From the NCBI RefSeq assembly GCF_015708085.1, contig NZ_JADNYM010000005.1:1-64000 (forward strand): DNA of 64,000 nucleotides. The letters run 5' to 3'. The first letter of the stretch is position 1. Each line of letters begins with the position of its first letter. This document shows positions 27,448 to 43,002 of the stretch, one piece after another. Position numbers and translations under genes: made by a program. Source of the stretch: Arthrobacter terrae. GTDB lineage: Bacteria > Actinomycetota > Actinomycetes > Actinomycetales > Micrococcaceae. The notes beneath the pieces are model-generated. The model saw only the letters and a list, made by a program, of their open reading frames with translations, was not told the origin of the DNA and made no database searches.

Positions 27448-28224
27448 ATGACCTCTGCACCGAAAATCACCGTCGAACACCTCATCAAAAAGGGCCTCCT
27501 GCACCCTGATGCCGCCAACAAACACCGCGGCAAGCACGAGCGTTTCAACAGGATCCTGCGCAGCGAAGGGAGAGTCGCCACCGAAGCCCAGGTCACAGGC
27601 TTCATGACCATGTTCGGTGGAGACCTTGAGGATGCCGTGATTGGCTATCTCTGCACCGCCGCCGGCGTTGAGGACCGGGACCGGCTCCAGATCGTTTCCG
27701 GGCTGGAATTCAGATTCGACTCAGAAGCACCCAATAAGAGGTCCATCGACCTCGTGATCGGTCGACGCGATGAAGACGCGCCAACAACCAAAGGGGCCAA
27801 GTCCTGGACCCCCGTCGTTGCGGTCGAGGCGAAGTTCGGCGCCATGGTCAACGGAGGCCACGGCTATTGCCCTGACGACGCTTTGGGCTACTCAAACCAG
27901 GCAATCTGCTATGCCCTCCACACCTGCGTCGACGACCGCCTGGACGGCACTGTGAAGTACGTCTGGCTGGGCAACCCGGTGGACGCCGAGATGCTTGCCC
28001 TGTACGGACCGTGGGGCCGCAAGGGAATCCATCGCGGCGATTTCGACTACCAAACCGTCAAGGACGCGTTCGACGACCAGGAACTCGCCAAAGACAAGTG
28101 GAAGCCAGCCACGTGGCCCGCGCTGGGTGCGGCCATCACCACAGCACTGAACGCCCAGGGGCTCGCCGCCGAAGCGGAAGCCATCGTTAGGTTCCTGCGT
28201 GCAGGCGGTCCGTCCGCTAACTGA
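27448..28224 (+). CDS. PD-(D/E)XK nuclease-like protein
   Basis: The middle of this 258-residue protein has a PD-(D/E)XK-type core: RSIDLVIGRR (Asp), then WTPVVAVEAKFGA (ExK) about 25 residues later, followed by a helix (DALGYSNQAICYAL). Such folds cleave DNA or RNA. CTTCCGAAAGGCACTCC precedes the ATG. It follows an HTH gene by 50 bp and is closed by a terminator. I would call it a possible restriction or defence nuclease, but the exact family is unknown to me. Confidence 0.6.
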   Translation: MTSAPKITVEHLIKKGLLHPDAANKHRGKHERFNRILRSEGRVATEAQVTGFMTMFGGDLEDAVIGYLCTAAGVEDRDRLQIVSGLEFRFDSEAPNKRSIDLVIGRRDEDAPTTKGAKSWTPVVAVEAKFGAMVNGGHGYCPDDALGYSNQAICYALHTCVDDRLDGTVKYVWLGNPVDAEMLALYGPWGRKGIHRGDFDYQTVKDAFDDQELAKDKWKPATWPALGAAITTALNAQGLAAEAEAIVRFLRAGGPSAN

Positions 28225-28232
28225 CCAAGCAT

Positions 28233-28259
28233 CTGACCGGGGCGGGTTGCCCCGGTCAG
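28233..28259. terminator. Terminator after the HTH/nuclease pair
   Basis: CTGACCGGGGC and GCCCCGGTCAG, 11-bp perfect arms, 5-nt loop. Works for both converging units. Confidence 0.8.
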
Positions 28260-28262
28260 GCT

Positions 28263-28556
28263 TCAGCGCAGCATGCAGCCACGGTGAGGTATGACGTGCT
28301 CGTGATGGAGGGTGCAGCAGAAGTTGTCGTGGTCGCAGCCGACGTGCTCGTAGTGATCGGCGAGGTCGTCAAGGCTGACGCGGTCGCGGACCTCCAAGGG
28401 CTCGCGCGTGCTGCCGCGGGCCAGGACGACGGTCCGCCCGGACCGCAGGCCACTCAGGGTCCACACTTTCCCGGTTCCTGTGTCCCGGTAGGTGAAGCCG
28501 ATACCGACCGGGATGCGGGGTGCCGTACGGGCGTGGCGTGGCGTGCTGTTTTCCAT
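28263..28556 (-). CDS. Small protein with Cys/His C-terminus, leaderless (97 aa)
   Basis: The ATG at 28556 is 7 nt after ACACAT. Paralogue of the next gene upstream: both have VG..YR.T.TG..W near the N-terminus and (R)D.VSL.D.AD.YE. This copy adds a putative zinc-binding tail (CDHDNFCC, HHEHVIPHRGC). Function unknown. Confidence 0.65.
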   Translation of the reverse strand: MENSTPRHARTAPRIPVGIGFTYRDTGTGKVWTLSGLRSGRTVVLARGSTREPLEVRDRVSLDDLADHYEHVGCDHDNFCCTLHHEHVIPHRGCMLR

Positions 28557-28563
28557 GTACCCA

Positions 28564-28592
28564 ATGTGTGCGGCGGGCCCGCGGACGGTCCA
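28564..28592 (-). promoter_or_regulatory. Family 1 promoter for the 28556 gene
   Basis: TGGAC, 18 nt, ACACAT, then 7 nt to ATG. Confidence 0.6.
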
Positions 28593-28594
28593 CG

Positions 28595-28789
28595 TCAGGT
28601 CGCTGGCTCGTACGCATCAGCGAAGTCGGTTAGGCTGACGTAGTCTCTGGCCTCGCAGCCGTAGAAGTCTTCGGTGAGCGCAATGAGCCCCGAGTCGCAG
28701 ATCCTGGTGACGTGCCAGATCCGTCCGGTGGAGTGCCGGCGGTAACGGGCGCCGACTGCGGGTGTGTCGAGCAGTGTGGTCGTGGTCAT
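28595..28789 (-). CDS. Small paralogue of the 28263 gene, leaderless (64 aa)
   Basis: Shares the TGRIWHVTRI and RDYVSLTDFADAYE blocks with its neighbour but ends before the Cys/His tail. The ATG at 28789 is 7 nt after an ACACAA -10. Probably a beta-barrel-like small domain; function unknown. Confidence 0.6.
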   Translation of the reverse strand: MTTTTLLDTPAVGARYRRHSTGRIWHVTRICDSGLIALTEDFYGCEARDYVSLTDFADAYEPAT

Positions 28790-28796
28790 ATCTTCC

Positions 28797-28825
28797 TTGT
28801 GTGCGGCAGATGCTCTGATCGTCAT
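28797..28825 (-). promoter_or_regulatory. Family 1 promoter variant (ACACAA)
   Basis: ATGAC, 18 nt, ACACAA, then 7 nt to ATG. Overlaps the end of the exonuclease gene. Confidence 0.6.
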
Positions 28826-29385
28826 CCGATGCCCAAGCCGCGGTAGAGGTTCGTGATCGAGGTGGCGCCGCGGCGGCGGCCGATTTCCACGGCAATGCGG
28901 GCGCAGGTGAGCGCATCGTCTCCGGCGTCATGCTGGGCGAAAGAGGGCAAGCCAAGATGTTCAGCCACCAGATGGAGTTTGTGTTTGCCGAGCTGGAGTG
29001 TGGTCCGGGACAGTGTCTCGGTGCAGCGGAATTCGTTCCGCGGCTGCGGCAGGCCGGCGATGGTGAACGACCGGCGGAGCACCCCGGCGTCGTAGCTGAT
29101 GTTGTGGGCGAGCACCGGACCGTCACCGATCAGGGAAGCCAGCTTGTGCATTGATTCTTCCAGTGAGGGAGCATCGGCCGTCATATCGGGCGTGATCCCA
29201 TGAACCCGGATGGCGTATTTGTCGAAGGATTCCGGGCCGGTGTGCGGGCGGATCAGCCACGACTCGGTGGCGGTTATCAGGCCGTCGCATACTGTCGTGA
29301 CGCCCACCGCGCAGGCGGAGCTACGGTCGGAGTTAGCTGCTTCAAAATCAATGGCCGTGAAGTCCAGACCGGGGAGGGGTTCCAT
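28822..29385 (-). CDS. DEDDh 3'-5' exonuclease (Pol III epsilon-like)
   Basis: 187 residues with the exonuclease motifs: TAIDFEAAN (DxE), LAHNISYDAGVL (Exo II Asp) and QHDAGDDALTCARI (HxxxxD). This fits the epsilon subunit that proofreads for the DnaE polymerase; the element also encodes DnaE. The ATG at 29385 is 7 nt after ACACAT, so I reject the upstream in-frame starts. No clamp-binding motif is evident. Confidence 0.88.
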   Translation of the reverse strand: MEPLPGLDFTAIDFEAANSDRSSACAVGVTTVCDGLITATESWLIRPHTGPESFDKYAIRVHGITPDMTADAPSLEESMHKLASLIGDGPVLAHNISYDAGVLRRSFTIAGLPQPRNEFRCTETLSRTTLQLGKHKLHLVAEHLGLPSFAQHDAGDDALTCARIAVEIGRRRGATSITNLYRGLGIG

Positions 29386-29392
29386 AACCCTC

Positions 29393-29421
29393 ATGTGTGC
29401 GGAGGTGCTGGTGTCTTTGCC
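29393..29421 (-). promoter_or_regulatory. Family 1 -10 for the exonuclease
   Basis: CCGCACACAT, 7 nt to ATG; the -35 (GGCAA) is weak. Confidence 0.5.
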
Positions 29422-29432
29422 CGGCCAGCTGA

Positions 29433-29473
29433 AAGGCCCGGCGGGCGCCGCAGTGGCGTCCGTACCGGGCCTT
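29433..29473 (-). terminator. Terminator-like hairpin ending the second RNA
   Basis: AAGGCCCGG and CCGGGCCTT with an inner GC stem; followed by TTTC on the minus strand. Confidence 0.6.
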
Positions 29474-29589
29474 GTAGCGCAGCATCCCTGCCTGGGGTGA
29501 ACCCCCGTCCCGACTCCCAGGACGCTGACCGTTATGCCCCATCGGGAGGCATACGGTCAAAGGCGGTCAAACTGCCGGCACTTGGTGCC
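29433..29589 (-). ncRNA. Second candidate structured RNA, ~155 nt
   Basis: A perfect family 1 promoter predicts a start near 29589 with no start codon. Hairpins follow at once: CCGGCAC-CAA-GTGCCGG, then a long one (GACCGT...TGCC...GGCA...ACGGTC), then a GGGGGTTCACCCC element, and it ends in the AAGGCCCGG/CCGGGCCTT terminator-like stem with UUU. No RNA family recognised. Reading frames across it have no start near +1 and no plausible protein. Confidence 0.5.
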
Positions 29590-29596
29590 GGACGTT

Positions 29597-29625
29597 ATGT
29601 GTGCGGACTCCGGAAAGTCTCTCCC
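29597..29625 (-). promoter_or_regulatory. Family 1 promoter for the second RNA
   Basis: GGGAG, 18 nt, ACACAT; no ATG at +7. Confidence 0.65.
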
Positions 29626-29632
29626 CGCTCTC

Positions 29633-29920
29633 CTACCGTCGCCAGTCGTTTTGGAGATCGCCGAGAATGAACCCGATCTCAAGCACCGACTGAATCGACC
29701 TGTCAATCACATACTCCCGCTCAGGGCCCCTAAGGCCCATGAGTGTGGAACCGTTCCGACGGAACGAAGTGCGAAGCTGGTCAGCACGGAAGTTTTCGGT
29801 CTGTTCGGGCAATTGGTCGATGTATCCCGTAGCGTCGGCGTAGGCGTCAGCCGTGTCCTGAAGCGGGTGGTTCACAGTTCTCTCTACTGCGATGACACGA
29901 CTGCGGGCTTCGGTAGGCAT
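29633..29920 (-). CDS. Unknown protein (95 aa)
   Basis: AAGGAGAGATC precedes the ATG, so this gene uses a normal ribosome site with a ~30-nt leader from a family 1 promoter. Helical protein (ERTVNHPLQDTADAYADAT). No family recognised. Confidence 0.6.
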   Translation of the reverse strand: MPTEARSRVIAVERTVNHPLQDTADAYADATGYIDQLPEQTENFRADQLRTSFRRNGSTLMGLRGPEREYVIDRSIQSVLEIGFILGDLQNDWRR

Positions 29921-29957
29921 GATCTCTCCTTAGGGTCGGATGTGGCTTGCAGTCTTC

Positions 29958-29986
29958 ATGTGTACGGAGGACTGACGGCCGCTCCC
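29958..29986 (-). promoter_or_regulatory. Family 1 promoter for the 29920 gene
   Basis: GGGAG, 18 nt, ACACAT. Confidence 0.7.
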
Positions 29987-30043
29987 CGGGCAGCGAAAGG
30001 TCCGGCGGCACGACGAGGTGCTACCGGACCAATGCTGCGTACG

Positions 30044-30826
30044 TCAGCCGAGGGGTCGTTCCTGCTGCATCCAGTCATCGACGACGCCGTGGATGTCCAT
30101 GTTGCCGTTCCAGCCGGACTCCTGGTAGGCGTCGGCGGCGAACCCGGCGAACCGCTCGACAGTGTCCCGGTCCTCAAATCCTGTGACACCCAAGACTGAG
30201 TGCCCATAGTCGTACGCGAAACTGTGATGCTCGTCCCACTGCTTACGATCCTCGGGGCTGAGCGGGTCCGGCTCGTCGGGACCGTCCCAGCCGAAGTTGA
30301 CGCTGTCCGGTCCGCCAATCAGCGCGGCTGCCAAGGCTGCCTCTGCTTCGGCAGTGTTGACCGCTGCCTCATCCTTGTACTTCGGAATGCATTCCTTGGC
30401 CAGCGTGCCCGGCTTGAAGTCCAGATCGCGTTCAATGGGCAGTCCGAACTGGCCACTCACTTCCTCGACGTCGCCGAGTGGAATGTAGCCCCACTCCCCG
30501 TGTCCGACACCCAGGTCGGCGTACCCGAACGCCTCGTTTTCTTTCGGGTCATACTCCGCGACATACCAGTCCATACTGCCCTGGAAATAGTGTGCCTGGA
30601 GTGGCTTGTCGCCAAGGGGGCTATCGTTTTCGGTCGCGTACAGCTTCGGCCAAGTCGCCATCTCGACTGCCGTCGGGTAGAAATCGTGTCCACGGCGGCT
30701 CCGCTGCGTTTCGACGGGCCGTTCCAGGGTTGGAGCGGCCAGGGCAACTCCGGGCTCGCTGTGGGCGGTTGCGGCGAATTCGCCACCGGACGGGATTCCT
30801 TTGGGTTGGCGGTTGTGCTCGTTCAT
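30044..30826 (-). CDS. DUF2958-domain protein with shared N-terminal tag
   Basis: Residues 1-28 are the tag RQPKGIPSGGEFAA then HSEPGVAL, shared with four other proteins. Residues ~50-135 match DUF2958 (LYATEND, WYVAEYDPKE, GEWGYIPLGDVEEV, GLPIERDLDFKP), a domain often found on plasmids, conjugative elements and phages. The C-terminal ~100 residues are unassigned. AAAAGGGACCACC precedes the ATG, with a family 1 -10 ~40 bp upstream. Confidence 0.75.
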   Translation of the reverse strand: MNEHNRQPKGIPSGGEFAATAHSEPGVALAAPTLERPVETQRSRRGHDFYPTAVEMATWPKLYATENDSPLGDKPLQAHYFQGSMDWYVAEYDPKENEAFGYADLGVGHGEWGYIPLGDVEEVSGQFGLPIERDLDFKPGTLAKECIPKYKDEAAVNTAEAEAALAAALIGGPDSVNFGWDGPDEPDPLSPEDRKQWDEHHSFAYDYGHSVLGVTGFEDRDTVERFAGFAADAYQESGWNGNMDIHGVVDDWMQQERPLG

Positions 30827-30865
30827 GGTGGTCCCTTTTAGGAGTGTGGAGTACTTTCACCATGA

Positions 30866-30894
30866 ATGTGTGCGGCTGCGCCGGTCTGCAGCGC
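30866..30894 (-). promoter_or_regulatory. Family 1 -10 element, weak -35
   Basis: GCCGCACACAT is perfect; the GTGAG box is not evident. Confidence 0.45.
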
Positions 30895-30928
30895 CAGTAG
30901 TTCGCTGGGAGGCGAACAGCCCGTCGCG

Positions 30929-31504
30929 TCAGCGGAAAGTCCTGCTCAATGACGTTGCGGCGTCAACGATTGAGGGGTGCGACAAAGTCAGTTCCTCTAC
31001 TCCTACAAACCGGTGAGGCTGTGGACTTCCGGGCGCAACCCAGATGCCGACAATGGACCATTGCGGCCGTTGAAATGACCACCATTTCACCCCTGCCCAT
31101 TTTCGTTCGCCGGCGTCGTTGCGGAACTCGAAAATCTTCAGCGCCCAGGTCTGGGTCAAGGGTCGGTTCCGGGAAATGACCTGAGTGGGACGCAGGTGCC
31201 GGTCCAGCAGCGTCTGGGCGTCATCAAGGTCAATAAGGGCCAGACCGTCCGGGATGCTGAACGTCGCCAAAGCCCGCCTGCTTCCGGGAAGTGCCGGGAA
31301 GTCAAACATCTCATCAGACCAGACAGGGACATTGCCAAAGGTTTCGCCGATAGCTCCCTCCTTAGTCAACGCCAGATACCACATGTCGTAATGCGCCGGG
31401 TTATCAATCCGGCCACCTCCCTGCCGCTTGTAAAGATAGTCCGCCGAACCGGTCTTTCCCATGCGGGCTGCAGCCAGGTGCGGAAACACCCGATACGCGA
31501 GCAT
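30929..31504 (-). CDS. RES-domain toxin (NAD+-degrading type)
   Basis: RES toxins of the Xre-RES/MbcTA class consume NAD+. Visible family features: YRVFPHLAAARMG at the N-terminus (Arg), DMWYLALTKEGAIGETFG (Glu on the helix) and a C-terminal VDAATSL segment. Length (191 aa) is typical. The start abuts the stop of the antitoxin-like gene upstream, the usual order for this pair. Likely stabilises the element or protects against phage. Confidence 0.85.
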   Translation of the reverse strand: MLAYRVFPHLAAARMGKTGSADYLYKRQGGGRIDNPAHYDMWYLALTKEGAIGETFGNVPVWSDEMFDFPALPGSRRALATFSIPDGLALIDLDDAQTLLDRHLRPTQVISRNRPLTQTWALKIFEFRNDAGERKWAGVKWWSFQRPQWSIVGIWVAPGSPQPHRFVGVEELTLSHPSIVDAATSLSRTFR

Positions 31505-32005
31505 TTAGGAGAATGATCCGGACATCTCAGCGTCCAGCGCTTCGATCACCTGTGAGGGTCCGCGCATTTTGACGACGTCGATGGGGCGGCCCCCGTCCAG
31601 GTACGAGTTGGGTCCGTTCAGCCACTCGAGCGCCACTTTGGGTGGCCAGAGCAGGTTTGCCCTCGCCAGGACATAGTCCAGGTCGATCAGGATTCGCTGG
31701 TTTTCCGGGTCTGGGGTTTCTTCACCGCTGATCCACCGAGGCGGCTGGCTGCTGGACACATCCATGAGCCGGGCCAGCTCCGCGCTGCCGCCGAGGGAGC
31801 CGGCAACGATATTAGTCCGCTCGGCAATCGCCCCCACAGTCTGAGCTTCGGTGTGGGTGAGAAAACGAGTATGGAGTTGGAGTCCATCGCGGTCGATTCC
31901 GACCCTATCCGCGCCTGCGGCGTCATACTCTGGAGCCGCAGAGTCACCCTCTGCGGCACCCTCTACTGCCATATCCCCCAGCCCTGGGACCCAGTCGTCA
32001 GTCAT
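31505..32005 (-). CDS. Xre/MbcA-type antitoxin (DUF2384-like)
   Basis: The C-terminal ~45 residues (ALEWLNGPNSYLDGGRPIDV) match the toxin-binding DUF2384 region of antitoxins paired with RES toxins. The middle (ELARLMDVSSSQPPRWISGEE) looks like the Xre helix-turn-helix. The ~55-residue acidic N-terminus is unusual. It precedes the toxin directly. No family 1-3 motif lies upstream, so it may use its own autoregulated promoter. Confidence 0.8.
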   Translation of the reverse strand: MTDDWVPGLGDMAVEGAAEGDSAAPEYDAAGADRVGIDRDGLQLHTRFLTHTEAQTVGAIAERTNIVAGSLGGSAELARLMDVSSSQPPRWISGEETPDPENQRILIDLDYVLARANLLWPPKVALEWLNGPNSYLDGGRPIDVVKMRGPSQVIEALDAEMSGSFS

Positions 32006-32043
32006 GCACCCAGAATACGCCCAACCGCTATGTTGAGCTATGT

Positions 32044-32595
32044 TCAGGCGGCCAGCTGCAGGGTGTTCGTGTGCGCCTGCCGGTAGGCGGCCGCCCAGGC
32101 TTCAATAGGGGCAATCAAGGCCGGTTCTCCCGGTCCGCCGAGCAGACCGATTCGCTCCAGCCTTTCCCAAATGCGGTAACCGTAAGGGCCAGTGTCGTCC
32201 TTGACCCATTTGAGAGCTTTGGACACCATGGCGAATTCGGCCACTGGTTCCACCGGCACCGGCCAGCGGCCCGGCGCGACGCAGGCGAGCCAGCGGACCT
32301 GGTGAGCGCGGGCGCCCAGGATAGGGACCATGCCGAGGGCGTATACCTTGTCCCCGTGGCCGGCCTGGATGACGGACCCGGCCACGGCGGTGCGGATTGC
32401 TCCGCCCATGTTGTCCCATGCCTTTACCTGTATGGCCGCGTCCGGCAGGACGTAGAGGTCCCCGACGTCTTCTTTGCGTCCGGCGCCAAGGTAGCGCATT
32501 GCCTTCTCCAGTGCGAACTCCGGGAGAAGGTTCACCACCATGGGCACCGACTCGCGTTCGAAGCGGTCGCCTTTATCTTTTGAGGTGTTAGCCAT
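32044..32595 (-). CDS. Holliday-resolvase-like PD-(D/E)XK protein, leaderless
   Basis: The ATG at 32595 is 7 nt after the GCATAG of a family 3 promoter. N-terminal KDKGDRFERE supplies a Glu, and EDVGDLYVLPDAAIQVKAWD gives the Asp and xVK of the nuclease core, as in Holliday-junction resolvases and related phage nucleases. The rest (~100 residues) is unassigned. Grouping with replication genes under family 3 fits a recombination role. Confidence 0.65.
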   Translation of the reverse strand: MANTSKDKGDRFERESVPMVVNLLPEFALEKAMRYLGAGRKEDVGDLYVLPDAAIQVKAWDNMGGAIRTAVAGSVIQAGHGDKVYALGMVPILGARAHQVRWLACVAPGRWPVPVEPVAEFAMVSKALKWVKDDTGPYGYRIWERLERIGLLGGPGEPALIAPIEAWAAAYRQAHTNTLQLAA

Positions 32596-32602
32596 GACAG
32601 TC

Positions 32603-32625
32603 CTATGCGTCCCCGCACCCGACGG
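32603..32625 (-). promoter_or_regulatory. Family 3 promoter for the resolvase-like gene
   Basis: CCGTC, 12 nt, GCATAG, then 7 nt to ATG. Confidence 0.7.
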
Positions 32626-32640
32626 GCCTCCCTTCATGTA

Positions 32641-35616
32641 TCAGGCGAACGGATCCTCGTCATCGCCCACCATGACGGCGTCAAAGGAATCAGCTCCGAA
32701 TGCTGGATCATCGAACGGGTCGACCTCCAGTGCAGCCGTGGTGGCACGGTGCGGCGCAGGTGCGGGTTCCGCAAACGGGTCCACCCCATCAGGCACGATG
32801 ACAGCATCTTCCGGTGCCGGTTCCGCCTTCACTGGCGCCCGGAGAACATGCTCGGATTCCCAGGGGGCGAGCTTATTTTTGCGCCATGAGACGTCCACTG
32901 CGTCGATCGCAGCGATCCTCTCCGGCGTGATGGTCCCCAGCCGCAGCGCGTTGCGCTGGTTGTTGATCCAAGCGCCAAGGTTGTGGCCGGCTTCGACATG
33001 CTTAACCGGGACCAGGGCATGACCTTCACGGGCAACGAAGGACACCAGATTCGACAACGCCATCTCCCACTTCTTCCGATGCTTCACCGGCCCGGTACCT
33101 GCCGCCACCTTCCGGGCCTTGGCAGGCTTGGCAGCTTTCGCCGACTTGGAGGGCGCCGCGGGTGCCGGGAGGCTCCTTCCGGATTTGCCGAGCACAAGGC
33201 TAGTGTGACCGTCGAAGAAGTCTCTCAGCCCGGACGCGGAGGAAGATTCCCGCAGCGCTGCCATGGCGGTCGTTTCAATCTGCCGTATCCGTTCACGGGT
33301 GACGCCGTAGATCCTGCCGATTTCATCCAGGGTCATTGCCTCCCCCGTGGCCAACCCGTACCGATAAGCGATGATGCCCGCCTCGCGTTGGGTCAGTCGG
33401 TCCAACCTGCTGTGCAGCGCGGTACGCAGTGCGTCATAGACGGCTGTGTCGAAAGCTGTTGGCTCATCCGGGTCGTACAGGGTTTCACCCAAGAGTTCAA
33501 GGCCGCCGCTCCCGTTCGGGACTTCCCAGTCAAGGGAAGCAGGGAGGACCCGCAGCCGCCGGAGACGGATGACCTCCTCGACTGTTTTGCCGGAGCCGGC
33601 AGCAATCTCTTCGACAGTTCCGTCACGTCCTTCACGCTGAAGGAATTCCCGTTCCGCACCGTAAACACTGAGGATCTGTTCGTTGATGTGAACAGGAATC
33701 CTGATCGTACGGGACTTGTCAGCGATCCCGCGCGTGATGGCCTGCCGGATCCACCAGGTTGCGTAGGTGGAGAATTTGAAGCCTTTCTTGTAGTCGAACT
33801 TCTGGACCCCGCGGTAGAGGCCGATGTTGCCTTCCTGGATGAGGTCCAGGAAGTCCATACCGGATCCGGTGTAGCGCTTGGCAATTGATACAACGAGGCG
33901 CAGGTTGCTGCGCACGAGCGTCAACGTTGCGGCCCGTCCTTCTGCGGCGATAGTCTCCAGCTCCAGGATGGCCCGTCGGCCCTCTGGGGTGGTGGTCACG
34001 AGCTTGTGCTCGGCATACAAGCCTGCCTCAATCGCCATGGCCAGGTCGGTCACCTCATCCGCACCCAGCAGGTCCACGTCACCGATCTGGTTCAGGTACT
34101 GGCGGATGTCCTCACCGATCTCCCCGCTCAGGACCGGCTCGTCAGTCCAGTCACCCTCTACATGTTCGAGGAGGAAAGGTTCTGCCGGCGGTTCAGTGAC
34201 TGGCCGTTCAGGGGCTTTAACCGCTACCGGTGGTGCGACGTAAGCCAGGAATTCTTCGATCGCCTCAACATCCGTCTCGATCCGGAACACCCCCTGCCGC
34301 CGGGCATACGGAAGGACGGCGCCGAGGTACTCTTCCCCACGCACCTTCGGGTCCTCGACCGTGTTCAGGGAGTAGAGCACGACGAAGCGCCCGGCACGGC
34401 CATCAGCTTTCTTGCGGATAACCCGGCCAAGGCGTTGAACAAGTTGCCGCTGACTACTACTGGCTGCGACCATGATCCCCAGATCGGCCTCGGGCACGTC
34501 AATTCCTTCATCCAGGACGCGCGGGGCGGTAAGGACTTTCGCGGTTCCGTCCCGGAAGGCACCGAGGGCCGCTGCACGCGCATCCTTACCCATGCCGGAC
34601 ATAACAGTCGCGGACGAGTTGCCCATCGCTGTGCAGATCTGGGCGGAAGCCAAAGCCGACTTTTTGGTCTGCGTGAAGACAAGGGTAGGTCCGGACGCTG
34701 TGATCGCCGGGTTCAGGGCTGCCAAGGCCATCCGCTTTGTCGGCGTCTCTGCGAGCAGGTTCTGCCGCCCGGTCATGGCGGCCATGTATTTGCGTGCCAG
34801 AGCCGGGCCGGGCGAGTCGACCTTGCTATCAGCCAGATGAGCGACGGCGGTGATGAATGGTGCGAACGGGTTCCGCGGGATGTGGAGGTATATCTCCAAG
34901 GGTCCGACGGCTTTGGCCATCGTCTCGGTGAACGCGTCGTATTCGTCGCGCTCGGGGGCCGTAAGTTCAACCCCGACCATGGCGACGTCGAAGGGTGCGA
35001 TGATGTTGTCGGCCAGCGCACGGTCGTACCAGAGACGGAAGACGATGTCGCCAAAAAAGGGTGCGAGGCGGACGAGGTGCTCTCCATCGGCGCGTTCGTA
35101 AGTGGCAGACAATCCCAAACGCCACGTATAGCCGGTCTCCAAAGCCTCAGCGAACAGTGGGGCGGCGTAGCGGTGGCATTCGTCGGCGATGATGAGTCCG
35201 GCCTTATGGTCACGCAGGGTTTGGCGCGTCGCGGCCGAATGAACGATAGCGACCAGGACCTCGACCGTGTCCAGACTGTCGTGGTGGTTATCCCCCAGGG
35301 CTCCCCGGCTGGCACCAGGAAGGTCTTTCCTTAACGCGCGCAGCCACTGCGTCTGCAGTTCAGCGGTCGGGACGAGGACAAGGACTTTGAACCCGCGGCG
35401 GACAGCTTCAAAAGCGGCCGCAATTCCTACCCGCGTCTTCCCTGAACCGGTGACGGCTTCGATGACTCCGCGGCGGCCAGCGGCACGCCAGCAGTCCACG
35501 GCTTCCTGCTGCCAGGTGTAAAGGCCGGGATAGTCATCGGCGGCACTGATGTGTCCGTCAGCCGGCAGAGCGCCATGCGATGCGTCGCTTGGTCGATAGG
35601 TCAAGGCAGTAGTCAT
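32641..35616 (-). CDS. SF2 helicase fused to a complete sigma-70 factor
   Basis: Single 991-residue frame. Residues ~30-460: SF2 (XPB/RecG-like) helicase with AVTGSGKT (Walker A, ~54-61), ADECHR (DEAH-like, 144-149), [12 protein letters not shown] (III), and QRLGRVIRK (VI, ~394-402). Residues ~498-790: sigma-70 of primary type, with region 1.2 ([10 protein letters not shown]), 2 ([14 protein letters not shown]...[15 protein letters not shown]), 3 ([13 protein letters not shown]) and 4 ([19 protein letters not shown]). Residues ~848-905: one helicase-associated domain. The acidic tail has three DPF motifs and ends DDEDPFA, reminiscent of the SSB C-terminal peptide. Start ATG 8 nt after ACACAT. 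I know of no standard family with this fusion; it may couple DNA opening with promoter choice. Confidence 0.9.
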
Positions 35617-35624
35617 GTTCCTCA

Positions 35625-35653
35625 ATGTGTGCGGCAAAGGCGGGATCTCTGCC
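35625..35653 (-). promoter_or_regulatory. Family 1 -10 for the helicase-sigma gene
   Basis: GCCGCACACAT, 8 nt to ATG; -35 is poor (GGGCAG region). The rest of 35654-35762 holds no gene. Confidence 0.5.
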
Positions 35654-35762
35654 CTAAACCCGGGCCGCCTGCGGCCTAAGAGACGGCCGATGGGCCCCAC
35701 TGGGTGTGGTGGCTGATACTGGACCTATGCTCGGAAACGCCCCACGGCTATAGCTGCAACGT

Positions 35763-35782
35763 CTACGCATGTTTCAGGGCAG
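35763..35782 (+). promoter_or_regulatory. Family 2 motif upstream of the 35819 gene
   Basis: CTACGCATGTTTCAGGGCAG. Confidence 0.6.
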
Positions 35783-35818
35783 AGGCCAACCACTACAAGC
35801 ACTCAGGGGTTTATCACC

Positions 35819-36727
35819 ATGGACATCAAACGCCGCCGGATGCTCACCGAGCCAGGCGACACCCTCCTCCTGTCCAAGTCCTCAATGGACACAGCCTTCC
35901 GTTTCACGGAATGGCAGGAGGCGACCGGTCTGACACCGAATCGGTTCACAGCGGACCCGATCTGCTCCGTTCCACTGCCCATCTACACGCAGGTGGCCGC
36001 TGGCGCCCGGCAGTTCTCCGCCGTCAAACCTGAGATCATGTGGCACCCGCTGTTCTGGCTGCCGCCGCGTCTCGCCGGCCGCTACAACCTGCCCTCCGGC
36101 CCGGACGGCGCCCTTGAGGTGGAGTCAACGACCATGTGGTCCATCCGGGTGGCACTGGAGCTGACCGCATCCGGACTGTACAGCATCGAGGACGGCTGGC
36201 TGGATATTCTCGCCACCGTCGGGATCGACGTTGAGAACGAGATTGATCTGGCCCGTGTCGAGGAATGGCAGTCCGGTGGTGTTGATGACCTGCTCGACTC
36301 AATCGACCTGGACCTGTACCTGGCGCTCGAGACCAACCCGAACTGGGCGCTCCAGTCGGCGATGGCCTTGGCTGAGCCGGCCACGCAGGCTCAGTGGGCA
36401 ATCCTGGCCGACTCCCTCATGGAGGTCGTCATGGACTCCTACGACGCCGAAGAAAACACCCCGTTGGCTGAGGTCCGGAAAACGATCGCCGTCGTCGCTT
36501 CGCTGGCCGGCGTCCAACTCGACGAAGTTCCGACCGACGATGAGGAGCCCGCAGAAGAATTTTGGGCCCGGATCGAACTCGAATCCCGCGACGGAATCTA
36601 CGCCACCGTCCAGGAGTTCCTGGAAGGCCCGGCAACGGAAGCCCTCGGGTGGCTCACGCTGACCCGCGACACCTATTGGGAGTCCGTGGAAGATCTTCAG
36701 TCGCTCCAGACCACCCAGGCGGCCTGA
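35819..36727 (+). CDS. Unknown acidic protein (302 aa)
   Basis: No family recognised. Mixed N-terminal half (WQEATGLTPNRF) and a strongly acidic, helical C-terminal half (VDDLLDSIDLDLYLALE, PTDDEEPAEEFW). Family 2 motif ~40 bp upstream. Followed after 15 bp by a membrane protein gene, probably one transcript ending at 37417. Confidence 0.6.
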   Translation: MDIKRRRMLTEPGDTLLLSKSSMDTAFRFTEWQEATGLTPNRFTADPICSVPLPIYTQVAAGARQFSAVKPEIMWHPLFWLPPRLAGRYNLPSGPDGALEVESTTMWSIRVALELTASGLYSIEDGWLDILATVGIDVENEIDLARVEEWQSGGVDDLLDSIDLDLYLALETNPNWALQSAMALAEPATQAQWAILADSLMEVVMDSYDAEENTPLAEVRKTIAVVASLAGVQLDEVPTDDEEPAEEFWARIELESRDGIYATVQEFLEGPATEALGWLTLTRDTYWESVEDLQSLQTTQAA

Positions 36728-36742
36728 CCTATGGGAGCCACC

Positions 36743-37369
36743 ATGGACGAATACATTCCGCTGCAGGCCAGGGTCAATCCAGACGGCTCCGTCGACGTCC
36801 TGATCGACAGTGCTGCTGTACCGGGTGGATCCGGCCTGACCATGGCCTCTCTGCTGCAACTGCTGACGCGGTATGCCCGTGAAAACGGCAAGCTGATGAT
36901 GACCACCACACACCCCAACGGCAGTGTCACCCGCGATCTGGTTTCCGAGGCAGGAGAGATCACGCCGTTCTACCCTGAGGCGGGTCCACAGTCGGTGAAA
37001 GCTGCCGTCTCCGCTGATCCTTCCGAGGAGGCCCTACTGCAGGTCCTCAAGCAGAGCGGTCAACGCCGCGTCGGGTACTCCGAAATCGCGACGGCCCCGC
37101 CTGTAGCCGCCGCTCCGGCCACGACACGGGTAACGATGGGTGAGGGGGCAATCCCGAAATTTGATGTCGAGGCCGACATCCAGAAGGCCATGTCGTCGAA
37201 GAAACCTCCGGCGAGCACAAAGCAGCGCATCATCATTGCCCTAGTCATCACCGTGCTTGTCCTGGTGGCTGTCGCATTGGCCGGCATGCCGCTGCTGAAC
37301 GCGGCTGCACATATGCTCGGGGCACTACCTGCGCCGGGTGTCCCCGCGACCGGGTTACTGCAGATCTAA
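36743..37369 (+). CDS. Membrane-anchored unknown protein (208 aa)
   Basis: I use the ATG at 36743 (GGGAG five bases upstream); an ATG lies 4 codons earlier. A ~150-residue cytoplasmic part is followed by one membrane helix near the C-terminus (IIIALVITVLVLVAVALAGM). Function unknown; could be a structural part of the transfer apparatus. Confidence 0.6.
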   Translation: MDEYIPLQARVNPDGSVDVLIDSAAVPGGSGLTMASLLQLLTRYARENGKLMMTTTHPNGSVTRDLVSEAGEITPFYPEAGPQSVKAAVSADPSEEALLQVLKQSGQRRVGYSEIATAPPVAAAPATTRVTMGEGAIPKFDVEADIQKAMSSKKPPASTKQRIIIALVITVLVLVAVALAGMPLLNAAAHMLGALPAPGVPATGLLQI

Positions 37370-37383
37370 CCCTGCTGTCTGAG

Positions 37384-37417
37384 GGCCGCCCCGTCCAAGT
37401 GACGGGGCGGCCTTTTT
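37384..37417 (+). terminator. Strong intrinsic terminator
   Basis: GGCCGCCCCGTC and GACGGGGCGGCC, 12-bp perfect arms, then TTTTT. Confidence 0.92.
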
Positions 37418-37425
37418 CGGTTCCG

Positions 37426-37454
37426 GTGAGTATCGCCGGTAATGCCGCACACAT
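37426..37454 (+). promoter_or_regulatory. Family 1 promoter for the 37462 gene
   Basis: GTGAG, 18 nt, ACACAT, then 7 nt to ATG. Confidence 0.75.
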
Positions 37455-37461
37455 ACTGACC

Positions 37462-37632
37462 ATGGCGAACACACTTTTCCTGGCCCCGGCATCCTGCGCC
37501 CCATATTCTGCCGCCCCGGCAGCGGCGCTTCTGGAACCCCTGGAACTTGGCTACCGAATTTTCAGCCCGGAATTCCTGGACGAACTCGAGGAGCACTACC
37601 GGGCACTGGCCGTCGGCCGCGTCCCCGCATAG
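37462..37632 (+). CDS. 56-aa protein, leaderless, upstream of dnaE
   Basis: The ATG is 7 nt after ACACAT. The peptide starts MANTLFLAPAS and ends in a helix (FSPEFLDELEEHYRALAV). No family recognised. dnaE begins 80 bp downstream and may share the transcript. Confidence 0.55.
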   Translation: MANTLFLAPASCAPYSAAPAAALLEPLELGYRIFSPEFLDELEEHYRALAVGRVPA

Positions 37633-37712
37633 GAGACTCCGGACAGCTCTTTTGTCCTGTATGACCAGGGCCCGCCGGCCCACTTCCAGCCAGATAGAAA
37701 CCCGAGGAACCC

Positions 37713-40700
37713 ATGGCGTTCGTCCACCTGCATAATCACACCGAATTTTCGAGCCTTGATGGTCTTTCAAGACTCAAAACCGTCGCGAAAACTGCTGCAG
37801 CGCTGGGCCAGACCGCCATGGCCGAAACCGAACACGGCTCCCTGGCCGGTGCGTGGAGGTTCACGAAAGCCTGCCAGGCCGCCGGGATCAAACCGATTAT
37901 CGGCATCGAAATCTACATGAGCATCGGCGACCGTTTTCTGCGCAACTCCGAAATAGTGGACCGCAACGACGACACCACCGCCGATGCCGATGACGGCAAG
38001 GGTGAGACGAAAGAGAAGCGTTACGAGCACCTGACCCTCCTTGCCCGTAACGAACAAGGCTGGAAAAATCTCCTCGCCCTGCACAACAAGGCCGAAGAAT
38101 CCTACTGGTACAAGCCGCGGATCGATTACGCGCTGCTCAAAGAGCACGGCGAAGGACTGATCGTACTGACAGGCTGCCTCGCCGGCCCGGTTGCCGGTCC
38201 ACTGTCCCGTGCTGCCGCGACCGCTGCCGCAGGAGACGCGGAGAAGTCCGTCGAGTTCGCCTCCGAAGCGAAAAACAATCTGGATACCCTGATTGACTGT
38301 GTCGGCAAGGAAAACGTCTACCTGGAGATCATGTATCACGGGATCGGCGCCGAGCAGTCGGTATTGAAACCGATCGCCCAGCTCTCACGTGAGTACGACG
38401 TCCCAATGGTTGTCACCAACGACTGCCATTACGAAAAGGACGAGGACTCCGGCGCACACGAAGGCTTCCTCGCGGTCGGGTCCAAGAAAGGCCTGGATGA
38501 CCCGGCCCGCTTCAAGTTCAACGGCGGCGGCTACTACGTGAAGTCCGAGCAGGAAATGCTCGACATCAAACCCGGCAGCAAAACATGGGCCGACGCATGC
38601 GCCATGACTCAGGTCATCGCAGACCGTTGTGACGACCAGGTGATCCCGACCCCGCATCAGCGCCTGCCCAAATACCCGCTGCCTGAAGGCTTCACCGACT
38701 CCAACGTCTACCTGAAAAAGCTCGTCAAGGACGGCGCCGTCAACCGCTACGGGTATGACCTGGCGACCAAGGAGCGGATCCCGCTGTCCGCTGAGGTGAA
38801 GGAACGGCTCAAAACAGAGCTGGACATCATTGCCGAAATGGGTTTCCCGGACTACTTCCTCATCATGTGGGACGTCATCAACTGGTGCCGGACCGATGCA
38901 CCCATCGAGTTCGACAACCCGGACGCGCCCCGGAAGAAGCCGATCCTGGTCGGCCCCGGCCGTGGTTCCGCGGCAGGCTCGGCCGTCTCCTACTGCCTGC
39001 GCATCGTTGGTATCGACCCGCTGTACAACAACCTCCTGTTTGAGCGTTTCCTCGAACCGGGCCGCGCCGGCATGCCCGACATCGACGTCGACTTTGAAAA
39101 GGCCCGCCGCGACGAGGTGTTCGCCTACCTGGCCTACCGTTGGGGGAAAGGCAACGTCGCCCGCATCGGCACGTTCGGTGTCGCCCTGTCCAAGGCTGCC
39201 ATCAAGGACGCCGCCCGCATCCTGAAGCCGTCCGGCCCCAGCGAGGAAATCAAAGCCCAGGCCAAAGAATTCTTCATTGCCGGTGAGCGCGGCAAGGGTG
39301 CGACGTTGCTCCGTGACGCCGAAAAGGTCGCCGCGGACAGGGCCGCGCAGAAAATGCGGCTCGGAAACAAGATGTCTGACCTGGTCCCGGCCTCCGGTGA
39401 AAAAGCGTACGACTTCGCACAGCTCACCGATACGAAAGACCAGGCCGGTCAGGCATTCCGGGACCTCGTTGACGAATCCGGCGAGGACGCCCAGGCCATC
39501 CTGGAACTGGCCCGCGCATTCGAAGGGGTCATCAAGAACGAATCAATCCACGCCTGCGGTTTCGTTGTCTCCCCTGAACCTCTCGATGAACTGGTCCCGC
39601 TGCGCTGGGCTTCCCACGCCGCGGATGCCGACCCGGCAGCCCCGCGCGTCATCTGCTGGGATGGTCCCGAGGTCGAAGACTACGGGTTCCTGAAGATGGA
39701 CATCCTGGGCCTGATGAACCTGGACATCGTCTCCACCGCGCTGGAAAACATCGAAATGACCACCGGTGAGCACCTCACGATGGACTCCATTCCGCACCCG
39801 GACATCAAAGGCGACCCGAAGGTTGACGCCGCTTTCGCGCTGATTGCTGCCGGAAACACCGGAGGGGTATTTCAGATGGAATCGGGCGGGATGGTGAAAA
39901 TCGCCCAGGACGTCGTTCCGGAATCCCTCACCGACATTTCCGCCATCGTTGCCCTGTTCCGTCCCGGCCCGCTGGCCGCGAAGGTCCCGGACCGGTACGC
40001 TGCGCGCAAAAACGGGCGAGAAGAGGTCGACTACGACGAGTTCACCTCGAACAAGATGGAGCAGGAATGGATCGCCAAGGTCCTCGATGACACGTATGGA
40101 AAATTCGTGTTCCAAGAGCAGCTCATGCGTCTGGGGACGGTCATTTCCGGATTCGATGCCTCTCAACGATCCGTGTTGCGTAAGGCTGTCGGCAAGAAAG
40201 ACGCCAAGAAGATGGCCGAGGTTGGCAAGATGCTGGCCGCCGGCGCCGAACAAGAATTCTTCGACGAGAGTGGGGTCCTGATTTCTCCGAAATTTTCGGC
40301 GAAGACAGCAGCCCACATGTTTGAGCTGATGAAAGGCTCGGCGTCGTACCTGTTCAATGCGAGCCACTCCGCCGCGTACGCGCAGCTGGCGTTCGTCACC
40401 GCATACCTGAAAGCCAACTGGCCGGTCGAATACGCGGCAGCGATCCTGGCAATCGCCGACAAGGACGACAAACGCATGAACGCGTTTTGGTCCCTGAAAA
40501 CTGACGGGATCACGGTACTCGCCCCTGACATCAACCTGTCTCTTGCCCGTACTGCGCCGGTGAACGGCTCTGTCCAGATGGGTCTCGCAGAAGTCAAGGA
40601 AGTCGGCGCCGCCGGCCATTACATCCTCGCCGAACGAATCCTGAACGGGGAGTTCAAAAACCTTCACGACGTGCTGACCCGCGTCACCGTGCCTGGCAAG

Positions 40701-41846
40701 AACGGCACTGAGCCAACCAAGCTGCCCGTTGGTGCCATCCAAGGTCTCATCGAAGCCGGTGCCATGGACTCCTTCGGGCCCCGCCTCGGCCAGCTCATGA
40801 CGTTGCGCGCCGCCCACAAGTCGGACCTGTCCCCTATCGACGCCGAATGGTCTGACGTAGAGGAATCCACCCGGCAGCGCCAACGCCTGGGCGTCAGCCT
40901 CGGCACCCACCCGCTGCAGTCCCTGAAGGAAGAAATCCTCGCATGGGAGGGCCCGGCGGGAGGCAGGGCGACCCCGCTGCACAAAATCGCGGACGAAAAC
41001 GGTGAAGCAGTCCTGACCGTCGGCGTCATCTCCATGTGGGAGGAAAAAGGCTACTCCGGCGGACGGCGGGCCAACTTCGCCCTCGAATCCTCCAAAGTCA
41101 CCATCCAGGGAGTCATGTGGGACCGCACCCTGTCCAACCTGCGCCGCCGTGGCACGGTCCCCAAGGTCGGCGACGTCGTCGCTGTGTCCGGGAAAGTCAA
41201 CGTCCGCACCACCTCAGTCGGCGACGAAGACGTCGAGACCCAGGAGACCATCACCACTAAGGAGCTCTCCATTTTTGAAGTCTGGCAGATCGCATCGGCA
41301 ACCGCACCGGAAATCAACGAACCGCGCGCGGTCATCGACTTCGCCGCCAAATACCGTGAGCTGCGCGCCACCAATCCGGACAAGCCCAAAGGCCCCGGCG
41401 GCAAAGATGACGAAACCGACAAAGCCCCGGCCGGTGAGCCCAAAAAAGTATTCGTCGCCGAAGTCACGGATCTGGAGGATCACCGGAAGAAGTCACGGTC
41501 CCGGCTCGTGGTCGTTGCTACCTCGGCACTTGGCCGCGGCCTGACCGGGAGAATCCTCGTCGGCGACCCTGCAGTCGTCAAACCTCATTCGAGTACGAGC
41601 TGGCCGACGAAGAAAGTCCAGCCGGGGTCCATTTACCGGGTCATGTGCCCGGGAGGGGACATCGTCATCCTCCTGGTGAAGTCCCCTTCCCTTGGGCACA
41701 GCCAGCTGCTGGAGATTTCCAACGACGTCACCGTCGAGGACCCCCGCTGGACGAAGCAGGACGGGTCCAACGCCCTCTACACCTGGTACCTGCTGGAGCA
41801 GACAGCAGAGCAGGCCGTCGAGGAAGAAGACACACAAGCCGCCTAG
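37713..41846 (+). CDS. dnaE: DNA polymerase III alpha subunit
   Basis: Replicative C-family polymerase. N-terminal PHP domain (MAFVHLHNHTEFS); palm with GRGSAAGS and the catalytic PDIDVDF (Asp456/458) and KMDILGL (Asp663) motifs; fingers with QEQLMRLG and LRKAVGKKD; C-terminal OB fold region (VITVSGKVNV-type, here DVVAVSGKVNVRT). At 1377 residues it is longer than a standard DnaE (~1160-1190), with extra C-terminal ~200 residues. CCGAGGAACCC precedes the ATG. An element-borne DnaE beside an exonuclease and SSB points to partly autonomous replication. No clamp or loader genes are visible here. Confidence 0.95.
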   Translation: MAFVHLHNHTEFSSLDGLSRLKTVAKTAAALGQTAMAETEHGSLAGAWRFTKACQAAGIKPIIGIEIYMSIGDRFLRNSEIVDRNDDTTADADDGKGETKEKRYEHLTLLARNEQGWKNLLALHNKAEESYWYKPRIDYALLKEHGEGLIVLTGCLAGPVAGPLSRAAATAAAGDAEKSVEFASEAKNNLDTLIDCVGKENVYLEIMYHGIGAEQSVLKPIAQLSREYDVPMVVTNDCHYEKDEDSGAHEGFLAVGSKKGLDDPARFKFNGGGYYVKSEQEMLDIKPGSKTWADACAMTQVIADRCDDQVIPTPHQRLPKYPLPEGFTDSNVYLKKLVKDGAVNRYGYDLATKERIPLSAEVKERLKTELDIIAEMGFPDYFLIMWDVINWCRTDAPIEFDNPDAPRKKPILVGPGRGSAAGSAVSYCLRIVGIDPLYNNLLFERFLEPGRAGMPDIDVDFEKARRDEVFAYLAYRWGKGNVARIGTFGVALSKAAIKDAARILKPSGPSEEIKAQAKEFFIAGERGKGATLLRDAEKVAADRAAQKMRLGNKMSDLVPASGEKAYDFAQLTDTKDQAGQAFRDLVDESGEDAQAILELARAFEGVIKNESIHACGFVVSPEPLDELVPLRWASHAADADPAAPRVICWDGPEVEDYGFLKMDILGLMNLDIVSTALENIEMTTGEHLTMDSIPHPDIKGDPKVDAAFALIAAGNTGGVFQMESGGMVKIAQDVVPESLTDISAIVALFRPGPLAAKVPDRYAARKNGREEVDYDEFTSNKMEQEWIAKVLDDTYGKFVFQEQLMRLGTVISGFDASQRSVLRKAVGKKDAKKMAEVGKMLAAGAEQEFFDESGVLISPKFSAKTAAHMFELMKGSASYLFNASHSAAYAQLAFVTAYLKANWPVEYAAAILAIADKDDKRMNAFWSLKTDGITVLAPDINLSLARTAPVNGSVQMGLAEVKEVGAAGHYILAERILNGEFKNLHDVLTRVTVPGKNGTEPTKLPVGAIQGLIEAGAMDSFGPRLGQLMTLRAAHKSDLSPIDAEWSDVEESTRQRQRLGVSLGTHPLQSLKEEILAWEGPAGGRATPLHKIADENGEAVLTVGVISMWEEKGYSGGRRANFALESSKVTIQGVMWDRTLSNLRRRGTVPKVGDVVAVSGKVNVRTTSVGDEDVETQETITTKELSIFEVWQIASATAPEINEPRAVIDFAAKYRELRATNPDKPKGPGGKDDETDKAPAGEPKKVFVAEVTDLEDHRKKSRSRLVVVATSALGRGLTGRILVGDPAVVKPHSSTSWPTKKVQPGSIYRVMCPGGDIVILLVKSPSLGHSQLLEISNDVTVEDPRWTKQDGSNALYTWYLLEQTAEQAVEEEDTQAA

Positions 41847-41849
41847 CCG

Positions 41850-41878
41850 GGGAGGGTGGCTCCGTGCTCCGCACACAT
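41850..41878 (+). promoter_or_regulatory. Family 1 promoter after dnaE
   Basis: GGGAG, 18 nt, ACACAT; gives a ~65-nt leader to the next gene. Confidence 0.7.
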
Positions 41879-41950
41879 AAGGGAAGAACAGGCGGAACTG
41901 CCGCCTAGAATCTACCCACCCGCCGCTGTGCGCGGCAGAAGGAGCCCCTC

Positions 41951-42235
41951 GTGAGCCCCGCCGACGACAAGCCCCAGACCGACACAACCCTCGCCGCGCT
42001 GGCCGTGCTTGAACGTTTCGCCACCCAGGATTTCGACTCCGTTGACGCCTTGTTGGACACCACGAACAACAAAGAACTGGCCATGGGGCTTCTCGATGTT
42101 GCCAGAATGCTTACCGGCATGCTCGCCCGTGCCACCGATGCCCGCCACGACGAAGTTATCGTCCACGTCCGCGAAACCGTCATGGGCCTGATCCATGACG
42201 GCCACCTCGGCACCGGCCTCCAGCCCGTCAACTGA
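41951..42235 (+). CDS. Unknown helical protein (94 aa)
   Basis: GTG start after GAAGGAGCCCCTC. All-helical (LAALAVLERFATQDF, LLDVARMLTGMLARATDA). No family recognised. Between dnaE and ssb, each with its own promoter. Confidence 0.6.
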   Translation: MSPADDKPQTDTTLAALAVLERFATQDFDSVDALLDTTNNKELAMGLLDVARMLTGMLARATDARHDEVIVHVRETVMGLIHDGHLGTGLQPVN

Positions 42236-42244
42236 ACTGGTGCG

Positions 42245-42273: not shown

Positions 42274-42337
42274 ATAAGCCAGAAGGAGAACCCCGTTTAC
42301 GGGTGGTTTCCAACTGATGCGGGACCAGCGCAAAAAT

Positions 42338-42990: not shown

Positions 42991-43002
42991 TTTCGGCGCC
43001 GT

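Follow-up and report, generated by a model that had tools for sequence, protein, structure and literature searches.

To our knowledge, initiation by sigma-70 factors is held to need no ATP-driven motor. PbeA is a helicase of phosphorothioate-based restriction. XPB is stated, in a published study on bacterial XPB, to facilitate initiation at promoters (PMC3353954), and in another study mzaA, a gene of the mzaABCDE system, is introduced as 'a sigma factor' (PMC9523054), so that a sigma factor within a defence system is already known. Here we describe a gene of Arthrobacter terrae in which a helicase of superfamily 2 (SF2), a sigma-70 factor and a helicase-associated (HA) domain are joined in one protein. 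It lies in the first 64,000 nucleotides (hereafter the window) of contig NZ_JADNYM010000005.1 from assembly GCF_015708085.1. This contig (C45; the letters C, G and L precede our labels for contigs, genomes and loci) has 194,810 bases, and the genome comprises 4.43 Mb in 63 contigs. We tentatively read the product as a SigA-type sigma whose tethered double-stranded DNA translocase may act on promoter DNA, a proposal that we consider quite possible, if short of likely.

The plus strand of 32641-35616 is interrupted by stops, and the open frame is the translation of the minus strand. The preliminary description of this DNA had reported an uninterrupted frame of 991 codons, which holds for the form beginning at ATG 35616, whereas the frame itself runs further and comprises 1019 amino acids when counted from its first GTG (32641..35700). 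The ATG is preferred because the motif CCGCACACAT ends 8 nucleotides ahead of it, a spacing that is identical before the annotated ATG of the relatives on the plasmids pYJN5-1 and pACHL01. In residues of the 1019-amino-acid form, to which all domain coordinates refer, Pfam finds ResIII at 60-203 (1e-20) and Helicase_C at 334-430 (5e-15), then Sigma70 r2 at 595-665 (2e-24), r3 at 674-749 (5e-7) and r4 at 766-818 (2e-15) and, after the sigma part, a single HA domain at 875-936 (2e-14). The order of helicase, sigma-70, one HA domain and acidic tail that had been read from the letters is thereby confirmed in a single frame, and the helicase motifs I, II and VI indeed read GSGKT, DECH and QRLGRVIR. 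The sigma regions 1.2 to 4.2 described earlier were likewise recovered, regions 2 to 4 above the Pfam cut-off and region 1.2 (532-563) marginally below it in the window copy (20.6 against 22 bits). Region 1.2 exceeds the cut-off in the pYJN5-1 copy (24.5 bits) and, among the more distant fusions, in each of the six that were scanned; it is not listed for the pACHL01 copy. Region 1.1 gave no Pfam match in the window fusion at E values up to 1. The linker between helicase and sigma measures 43-124 amino acids in 31 members and is net acidic in every one of them, weakly so in some. In the tail, three DPF motifs are found in all three plasmid copies (window, pYJN5-1 and pACHL01), which terminate in D(D/E)EDPF followed by a single residue. 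The possibility that the HA domain forms part of the helicase was rejected on two grounds: the domain comes after the sigma, and it is also borne by the helicase-less sigma of plasmid pPA-B-2242 (L012).

Full-length relatives were found on two complete plasmids, pYJN5-1 of Paenarthrobacter sp. YJN-5 (440 kb; 75% identity) and pACHL01 of Pseudarthrobacter chlorophenolicus A6 (427 kb; 73% identity). Among 394 other Micrococcaceae genomes, 13 likewise have helicase and sigma in one open frame. When named genomes were searched with the alignment of helicases, the best 80 of 596 stretches were considered and gave 79 loci, at least 17 of them with the one-frame arrangement; two of these 17 (L063 and L071) are contigs already counted as L050 and L059, and L121 is cut by its contig. 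The hosts include Pseudarthrobacter, Paenarthrobacter, Arthrobacter, Enteractinococcus, Brevibacterium, Pseudoclavibacter, a Geodermatophilaceae strain, Klenkia, Granulicoccus, a Propionibacterium metagenome-assembled genome, Aestuariimicrobium and Tessaracoccus, and thus also Propionibacteriaceae. At E values of 1e-100 or below, a limit that may miss distant members, only the own genome and G009 pass among 296 genomes of the phylum. The helicase-sigma family is sporadic.

These homologues also answer the objection, raised in the preliminary description itself, that relatives might always be two separate genes and the join an assembly error. Only one locus points in this direction, that of Propionibacterium acidifaciens (L126), in which the two halves lie in overlapping different frames. 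However, the same uninterrupted frame recurs in independent genomes, in several families and on two complete plasmids, and the catalytic and recognition residues are kept, so that an assembly or annotation artefact is refuted for the family and the idea that the sigma is a dead remnant has, in our view, practically no chance of being right. In a quick tree of 88 helicases a single group of 34 rows (support 87, not starred) takes in all 30 fused rows. Two of its four unfused rows are L126 and L082, and the other two are helicases to which a type IV restriction module is attached. The fused and unfused labels require four changes on this tree, which suggests one main origin of the fusion and later exchanges. 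In the last two of the unfused rows, L067 4457-8497 (+) and L068 2266-6126 (+), a helicase of the fused clade is joined to the type IV module (scanned in L067, recognised by homology in L068) and not to a sigma; the one of L067 lies two genes upstream of a true fusion.

The housekeeping SigA is encoded by a separate gene of the genome (L003), so that the fusion represents an additional sigma. The nearest solved structures of its sigma half are SigA and HrdB (9e-87). We compared 17 positions, numbered as in E. coli sigma-70 and taken by us to be its -10, melting or -35 contacts, in 31 fused sigmas, some of which are near-copies of each other. Twelve positions are invariant in all 31 (N383, F427, T429, Y430, W434, Q437, R441, R584, E585, R586, R588 and Q589), and at the other five the SigA residue is kept in 29 (W433), 29 (T583), 28 (K426), 26 (R436) and 23 (T440) members. 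The window sigma equals the SigA of its own genome at 17 of 17 positions. Mean identity of the fused sigmas to 18 SigA sequences is 38-63% in 30 of the 31 and 72% in L055. Since the ATPase motifs are intact and 12 of the 17 sigma contacts are invariant despite a mean identity to SigA of 38-72%, both halves of the fusion look active, as far as their residues tell. The member of L055 (8683-11616, minus strand, in G271) combines the helicase with a sigma that shares 72-76% identity with SigA and with a C-terminal NusG-type KOW domain (3.7e-13 to NusG), and this combination of a SigA-near sigma and a NusG-KOW tail fits work with the host polymerase.

For the helicase half, a profile of 15 fused helicases was run against the PDB. 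The best four matches, and the only sequences below 1e-20, were XPB proteins (4e-43 to 3e-38), presumably archaeal ones; XPB of TFIIH came next at about 1e-16, and a query with a single sequence returned the same top four. The alignment spans about 375 residues of the SF2 RecA core, and the mid-insert is similar. Where the solved XPB chains read EREDGRHE or ERDDGKHE, most fusion members read ER[A/S/T/N]DGEHE; the position of the RED motif aligns as R-x-D with A, S, T or N in the middle, and the XPBII chains themselves read RDD. Walker A, DE[CA]H and QRLGR are kept in all 30 members with a complete helicase.

In the mechanism that we propose, the C-terminal sigma is expected to associate with the core RNA polymerase of the host and to read promoters of the SigA-like type. 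Sigma region 1.1 lies at the downstream DNA channel in the holoenzyme, and it is at the place of this region that the XPB/PbeA-type motor would be tethered by its short acidic linker. Once this holoenzyme is bound, the motor would use ATP on promoter-proximal DNA and might help to open promoters or clear obstacles, so that the genes served could be transcribed under hostile conditions, that is, loss of supercoiling, bound repressors or phage takeover. Polymerase binding, ATPase activity, promoter choice and the action of the motor at promoters are all things that we infer. The earlier suggestion that a helicase tethered to a sigma factor could open promoters is strengthened by the nearness of the helicase to XPB, the promoter-opening translocase of TFIIH; for a coupling of transcription to replication, which had been suggested along with it, nothing speaks beyond a nearby dnaE gene.

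Several observations weigh against this mechanism. The best named match of the helicase half is PbeA (189 bits in PADLOC), a restriction helicase and not XPB; TIGR04095 scores 128.5 bits on this half, below its cut-off of 600. In the window copy only 28 residues precede the helicase core when counted from ATG 35616, so that the DRD, which we take to be the N-terminal domain of XPB, is absent. Of 16 rows from the plasmids and Micrococcaceae, 14 have 21-85 residues in the corresponding stretch (the value for the other two is 0), and the frames of Brevibacterium and Geodermatophilaceae are longer N-terminally, with about 104-132 amino acids up to the core. In the sigma half, W433 is lost in the member of G093 and in that of G154, where R436 and T440 are changed as well, and T440 differs in 8 of the 31 fused sigmas. 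Moreover, the contacts of sigma-70 are conserved among sigma factors at large, so that their conservation points to a working sigma and not to a special promoter class. Finally, two related plasmids, pPA-B-2242 and that of A. caoxuetaonis, carry the sigma without a helicase, which implies that the motor is not required for every sigma of the plasmid lineage.

Off the plasmids, defence genes (BREX, type IIG, type IV or AddAB-like) are found close to many relatives of the fusion. Eight Micrococcaceae loci (L050, L053, L054, L056, L057, L060, L061 and L072) contain an operon-like run of NERD-helicase, fusion, AddB-type PD-(D/E)XK protein and AddA-type UvrD-PD-(D/E)XK protein, annotated in L054 and recognised by homology in the others. 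Beyond these runs, two Brevibacterium loci (L064 and L065) have AddA-like genes at their flanks, and an AddA-like gene is found near 10 of the 28 loci with a called fusion. Further neighbours are a DrmD-like helicase and a type IIG enzyme (L085, with the same gene clusters at L073), GmrSD (L064, whose cluster is shared with L067 and L138), a type IV enzyme together with HNH and BrxHI (L067), BREX genes (L066), a candidate PDC-S37 with a methylase (L055), HEC-05 (L080) and an HEC-06/Orf5-like gene (L138). Single genes tested beside L051 and L081 gave no match, and the one beside L069 matched solely families that also match in the control. At 1e-15, 113 PADLOC families were matched by 78 neighbour proteins of 14 fusion loci against 8 by 78 control proteins, a count of families and not of proteins (one protein may match many, and mad3 is matched in both sets) in which all controls are from Micrococcaceae and 10 of the 14 test loci from other families. 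In detail, the test set consists of 78 of 124 proteins, after the fusions, frames antisense to the fusion and genes more than 7.2 kb off had been dropped, and the control of 78 of 150 proteins, picked by hand from the central parts of 14 arbitrary stretches in Micrococcaceae genomes that carry a fusion. The cassette of NERD-helicase, fusion, AddB-like and AddA-like genes may be an undescribed defence system. Genes for an ADP-ribosylglycohydrolase and a TY-Chap protein are often seen upstream of it. A fixed effector partner was sought and not found, as the neighbours vary between lineages.

This setting raises the alternative that the protein is a defence effector docked on polymerase: the sigma would bring the translocase to promoters of incoming DNA, which it would remodel or degrade together with partner nucleases (AddA/AddB-like, NERD-helicase or PD-(D/E)XK proteins), and on plasmids it would protect the plasmid. 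We regard this as rather unlikely. The AddA-like genes, the operon-like runs, the excess of PADLOC families with its various systems per locus, and the position of PbeA as the nearest named helicase all argue for it. On the other hand, docking would not require all promoter-contact and melting residues to be intact, the partners differ from locus to locus, the single genes tested at the three loci named above had no match or matched only control-shared families, and genes of an island are often neighbours without joint function. In addition, the fusions on the plasmids are not in an evident defence island; their surroundings include dnaE, a RES/Xre pair and a small gene that resembles a nuclease when read by eye.

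The history of the sigma half bears on a second alternative. In the sigma tree, a quick one with several long branches, fused and free sigmas are intermixed, with three changes between the two states; L055 and two Geodermatophilaceae sigmas come close to SigA, and the free sigmas of pPA-B-2242 and the A. caoxuetaonis plasmid group with the three plasmid fusions. Because of this mixture there has probably been occasional swapping between the sigma half and host SigA, and the helicase was probably lost or gained in the plasmid lineage. If the sigma were an integrated decoy that imitates host SigA, phage-encoded hijackers or inhibitors of SigA would bind it and thereby switch on the ATPase. A few sigmas are in fact nearer to SigA than to their fused counterparts in other families, as though the host had renewed them, among them the one of G271 (72-76%); the two Geodermatophilaceae sigmas share 60-63% identity with Micrococcaceae SigA, but 65% with one another. 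The defence-gene setting and the precedent of MzaA, a SigA-like sigma in an antiphage system, would also suit a decoy. Most members, however, have a sigma far from SigA, and a pure decoy would have no need of the base contacts in region 2.4, most of which persist at a mean identity of 38-60%; we consider the decoy improbable and retain the tethered motor acting at promoters as our reading.

The preliminary description had also named the fusion as the natural candidate for a reader of one of the motif families of this DNA. The family in question, GG(T/G)GA(G/C)-N14-CCGCACACAT-N7-ATG, is dense on C45, C56 and four complete plasmids (375-440 kb). On C45 there are 66 CCGCACACA sites, 29 of them with GG(T/G)GA(G/C) at -20, and in 44 of the 66 an ATG or GTG starts exactly 17 bases past the first C, a geometry that looks like a leaderless promoter with an 18-base spacer. 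CCGCACACAT occurs at 126 sites in the own genome (3 in the reversed control), and C45 and C56 together account for 95 of the 100 sites listed. The window has 15 against 0.17 expected, for example at 35625-35634, 41869-41878 and 59638-59647. The counts are 127 for pYJN5-1, 139 for pACHL01, 97 for pPA-B-2242 and 133 for the A. caoxuetaonis plasmid, with none in each reversed control. Across 395 genomes the motif is mostly rare (typically 0-10 sites), often somewhat above the reversed control, and it is more frequent in G317 (135), G322 (142) and G287 (47) and reaches 20-29 in G035, G010, G038 and G105. The motif goes with the plasmid family, whether the sigma is fused or not, and is not wholly plasmid-bound.

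That the fusion is the dedicated reader of this plasmid promoter family, GG(T/G)GAG-N18-ACACAT (CCGCACACAT-N7-ATG), would agree with the density of the motif on both fusion-bearing complete plasmids and its fixed promoter-like spacing, with its presence ahead of the sigma gene itself on four plasmids (the fusion gene in three, the helicase-less sigma gene on the A. caoxuetaonis plasmid), and with the finding that the fusion is the only sigma-70 above the Pfam cut-off on pYJN5-1 and pACHL01. Yet the recognition residues are equal to those of SigA at all positions compared, while the motif is without a TANNNT -10 element, and it is similarly frequent on the plasmids with a helicase-less sigma. 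It is also found on contigs C19, C29 and C31 of G287, which have no sigma match (a sigma may lie elsewhere in this assembly of about 90 contigs), and only one site occurs in 260 kb around 13 other fusions. Since the motif is present irrespective of the helicase fusion and the contacts are SigA-like, the proposal is not supported, and we consider such a role very improbable. Another candidate reader of the CCGCACACAT motif is a protein of 341 amino acids at 51935-52960 (minus strand) with weak similarity to extracytoplasmic function (ECF) sigma factors (23 bits), which has full-length matches in G000, four plasmid records, G317 and G322, is conserved at 50-86% on motif-bearing plasmids and was not found in G287.

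Two further observations concern these motifs. In L288 and L289, on contigs C19 and C29 of G287, CCGCACACAT-N7-ATG is kept and the upstream part, judged by eye, is often GTGCG-like instead of GGTGAG, which looks like a change of the -35-like part alongside an unaltered -10-like part. A second motif, TCTACGCATG, has 12 sites on C45 (35762, 43002, 59979, 51486 and 23781 of the window and seven more), 11 of them intergenic, and for six of the 12 a called gene follows at a distance of 48-90 bases. As for viruses, TCCGCACACAT-N7-ATG was searched in viral contigs and gave 107 stretches; the 80 that are listed have a single match apiece, which we read as chance.

The carrier is a plasmid and not a phage, and the fusion is a megaplasmid gene. 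A phage origin was rejected: none of 50,697 phage records contained a full-length relative at 80% cover, no near match to 28001-45000 was found in phage DNA, and two scans of viral contigs gave one partial relative each. On pYJN5-1 and pACHL01, dnaE, SSB and nrdI/E are annotated near the fusion, and the window has frames of similar size at similar places. The small downstream gene listed in Table 1 adjoins the fusion and is conserved in all three plasmids. Further downstream of the fusion gene, a RES toxin is paired with an Xre/MbcA/ParS-type antitoxin at 30929-32005 (minus strand). Elsewhere in the window, a 920-amino-acid protein of SNF2 type at 55791-58553 (minus strand) includes a domain for intein splicing that exceeds the Pfam cut-off. 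An N-terminal tag resembling PKGIPxGGQFA seems to start dozens of otherwise unlike plasmid proteins on C45 and C56 (e.g. at 30044-30826 and 51935-52960, both on the minus strand) and is possibly a targeting signal. With the 341-amino-acid protein as query, G000 gave 27 matching places, pYJN5-1 gave 32 and pACHL01 gave 44, and those listed match mostly to its residues 8-50.

Table 1. Positions in the window of the fusion gene, its parts and its nearest features
Feature	Position	Strand	Remarks
Fusion gene	32641..35616	-	ATG 35616 to stop 32641, 991 amino acids; open frame extends to 35700 (GTG, 1019 amino acids)
CCGCACACAT, plasmid promoter-like motif	35625..35634	-	Ends 8 nucleotides upstream of the fusion ATG
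XPB/PbeA-like SF2 translocase core	34243..35532	-	Residues 57-486 of the 1019-amino-acid form; GSGKT, DECH, QRLGRVIR
Short net-acidic linker, where sigma region 1.1 would sit	34108..34242	-	43 amino acids between two profile matches
SigA-type sigma, regions 1.2 (slightly below the Pfam cut-off), 2, 3 and 4	33247..34107	-	Pfam, residue comparison
One helicase-associated (HA) domain	32893..33078	-	Pfam
Acidic C-terminal tail, three DPF motifs, terminus DDEDPFA	32644..32823	-	
Downstream neighbour gene, resembles a small PD-(D/E)XK nuclease	32044..32637	-	By eye; no Pfam match

The preliminary description knew of no family with this architecture, and none of the papers listed by our searches of the open-access literature (preprints being outside its scope) describes a helicase-sigma fusion family; among the matches listed for NCBIfam (best 25 of 80), PHROG and PADLOC, no model spans more than one half of the fusion. 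The mode of action proposed for such a sigma-70 with a motor would be new. The broader view, in which a sigma-70-type factor with its own XPB-type translocase opening or clearing promoters would be a covalent bacterial counterpart of TFIIH-assisted initiation, spread via actinobacterial defence islands and megaplasmids, is possible, if somewhat unlikely. If true, it would add a third mode of promoter opening in bacteria to those of sigma-70 and of the pair of sigma-54 and enhancer ATPase. Eukaryotes open promoters with the XPB translocase and sigma-70 initiation is regarded as motor-free, and the natural fusion would allow the question to be addressed in one purified protein. The defence setting of many relatives further raises the question whether transcription initiation is coupled to antiviral defence in bacteria, and an own sigma together with many near-identical promoter-like sites suggests that the plasmids of this family, of about 400 kb, bring their own transcription machinery.

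Among the known systems, the helicases with HA domains (PF03457) also combine helicase and HA in one protein, but in the fusion the HA domain stands after the sigma. PbeA (TIGR04095) is the strongest named match of the helicase, although this match is limited to the helicase half and lies far below the cut-off of the model. MzaA, the sigma-70 of the MZA antiphage system, is a SigA-like sigma and matches residues 586-831, but this match is confined to the sigma half, and its model NF041931 of NCBIfam scores 293.6 bits against a cut-off of 800. The group 1 sigma-70 factors SigA and HrdB share with the fusion regions 1.2-4.2 and the residues taken here as promoter contacts; the fusion differs from them by a helicase in the place of region 1.1, which was not found, and by standing beside a SigA of its own genome. 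XPB/RAD25, whether of TFIIH or of archaea and mycobacteria, has in common with the fusion the SF2 core, the ER-x-DGEHE-type stretch and the mid-insert, whereas the fusion has no DRD in the window copy, another middle residue at the position of the RED motif (where the XPBII chains, too, depart from RED) and an attached sigma.

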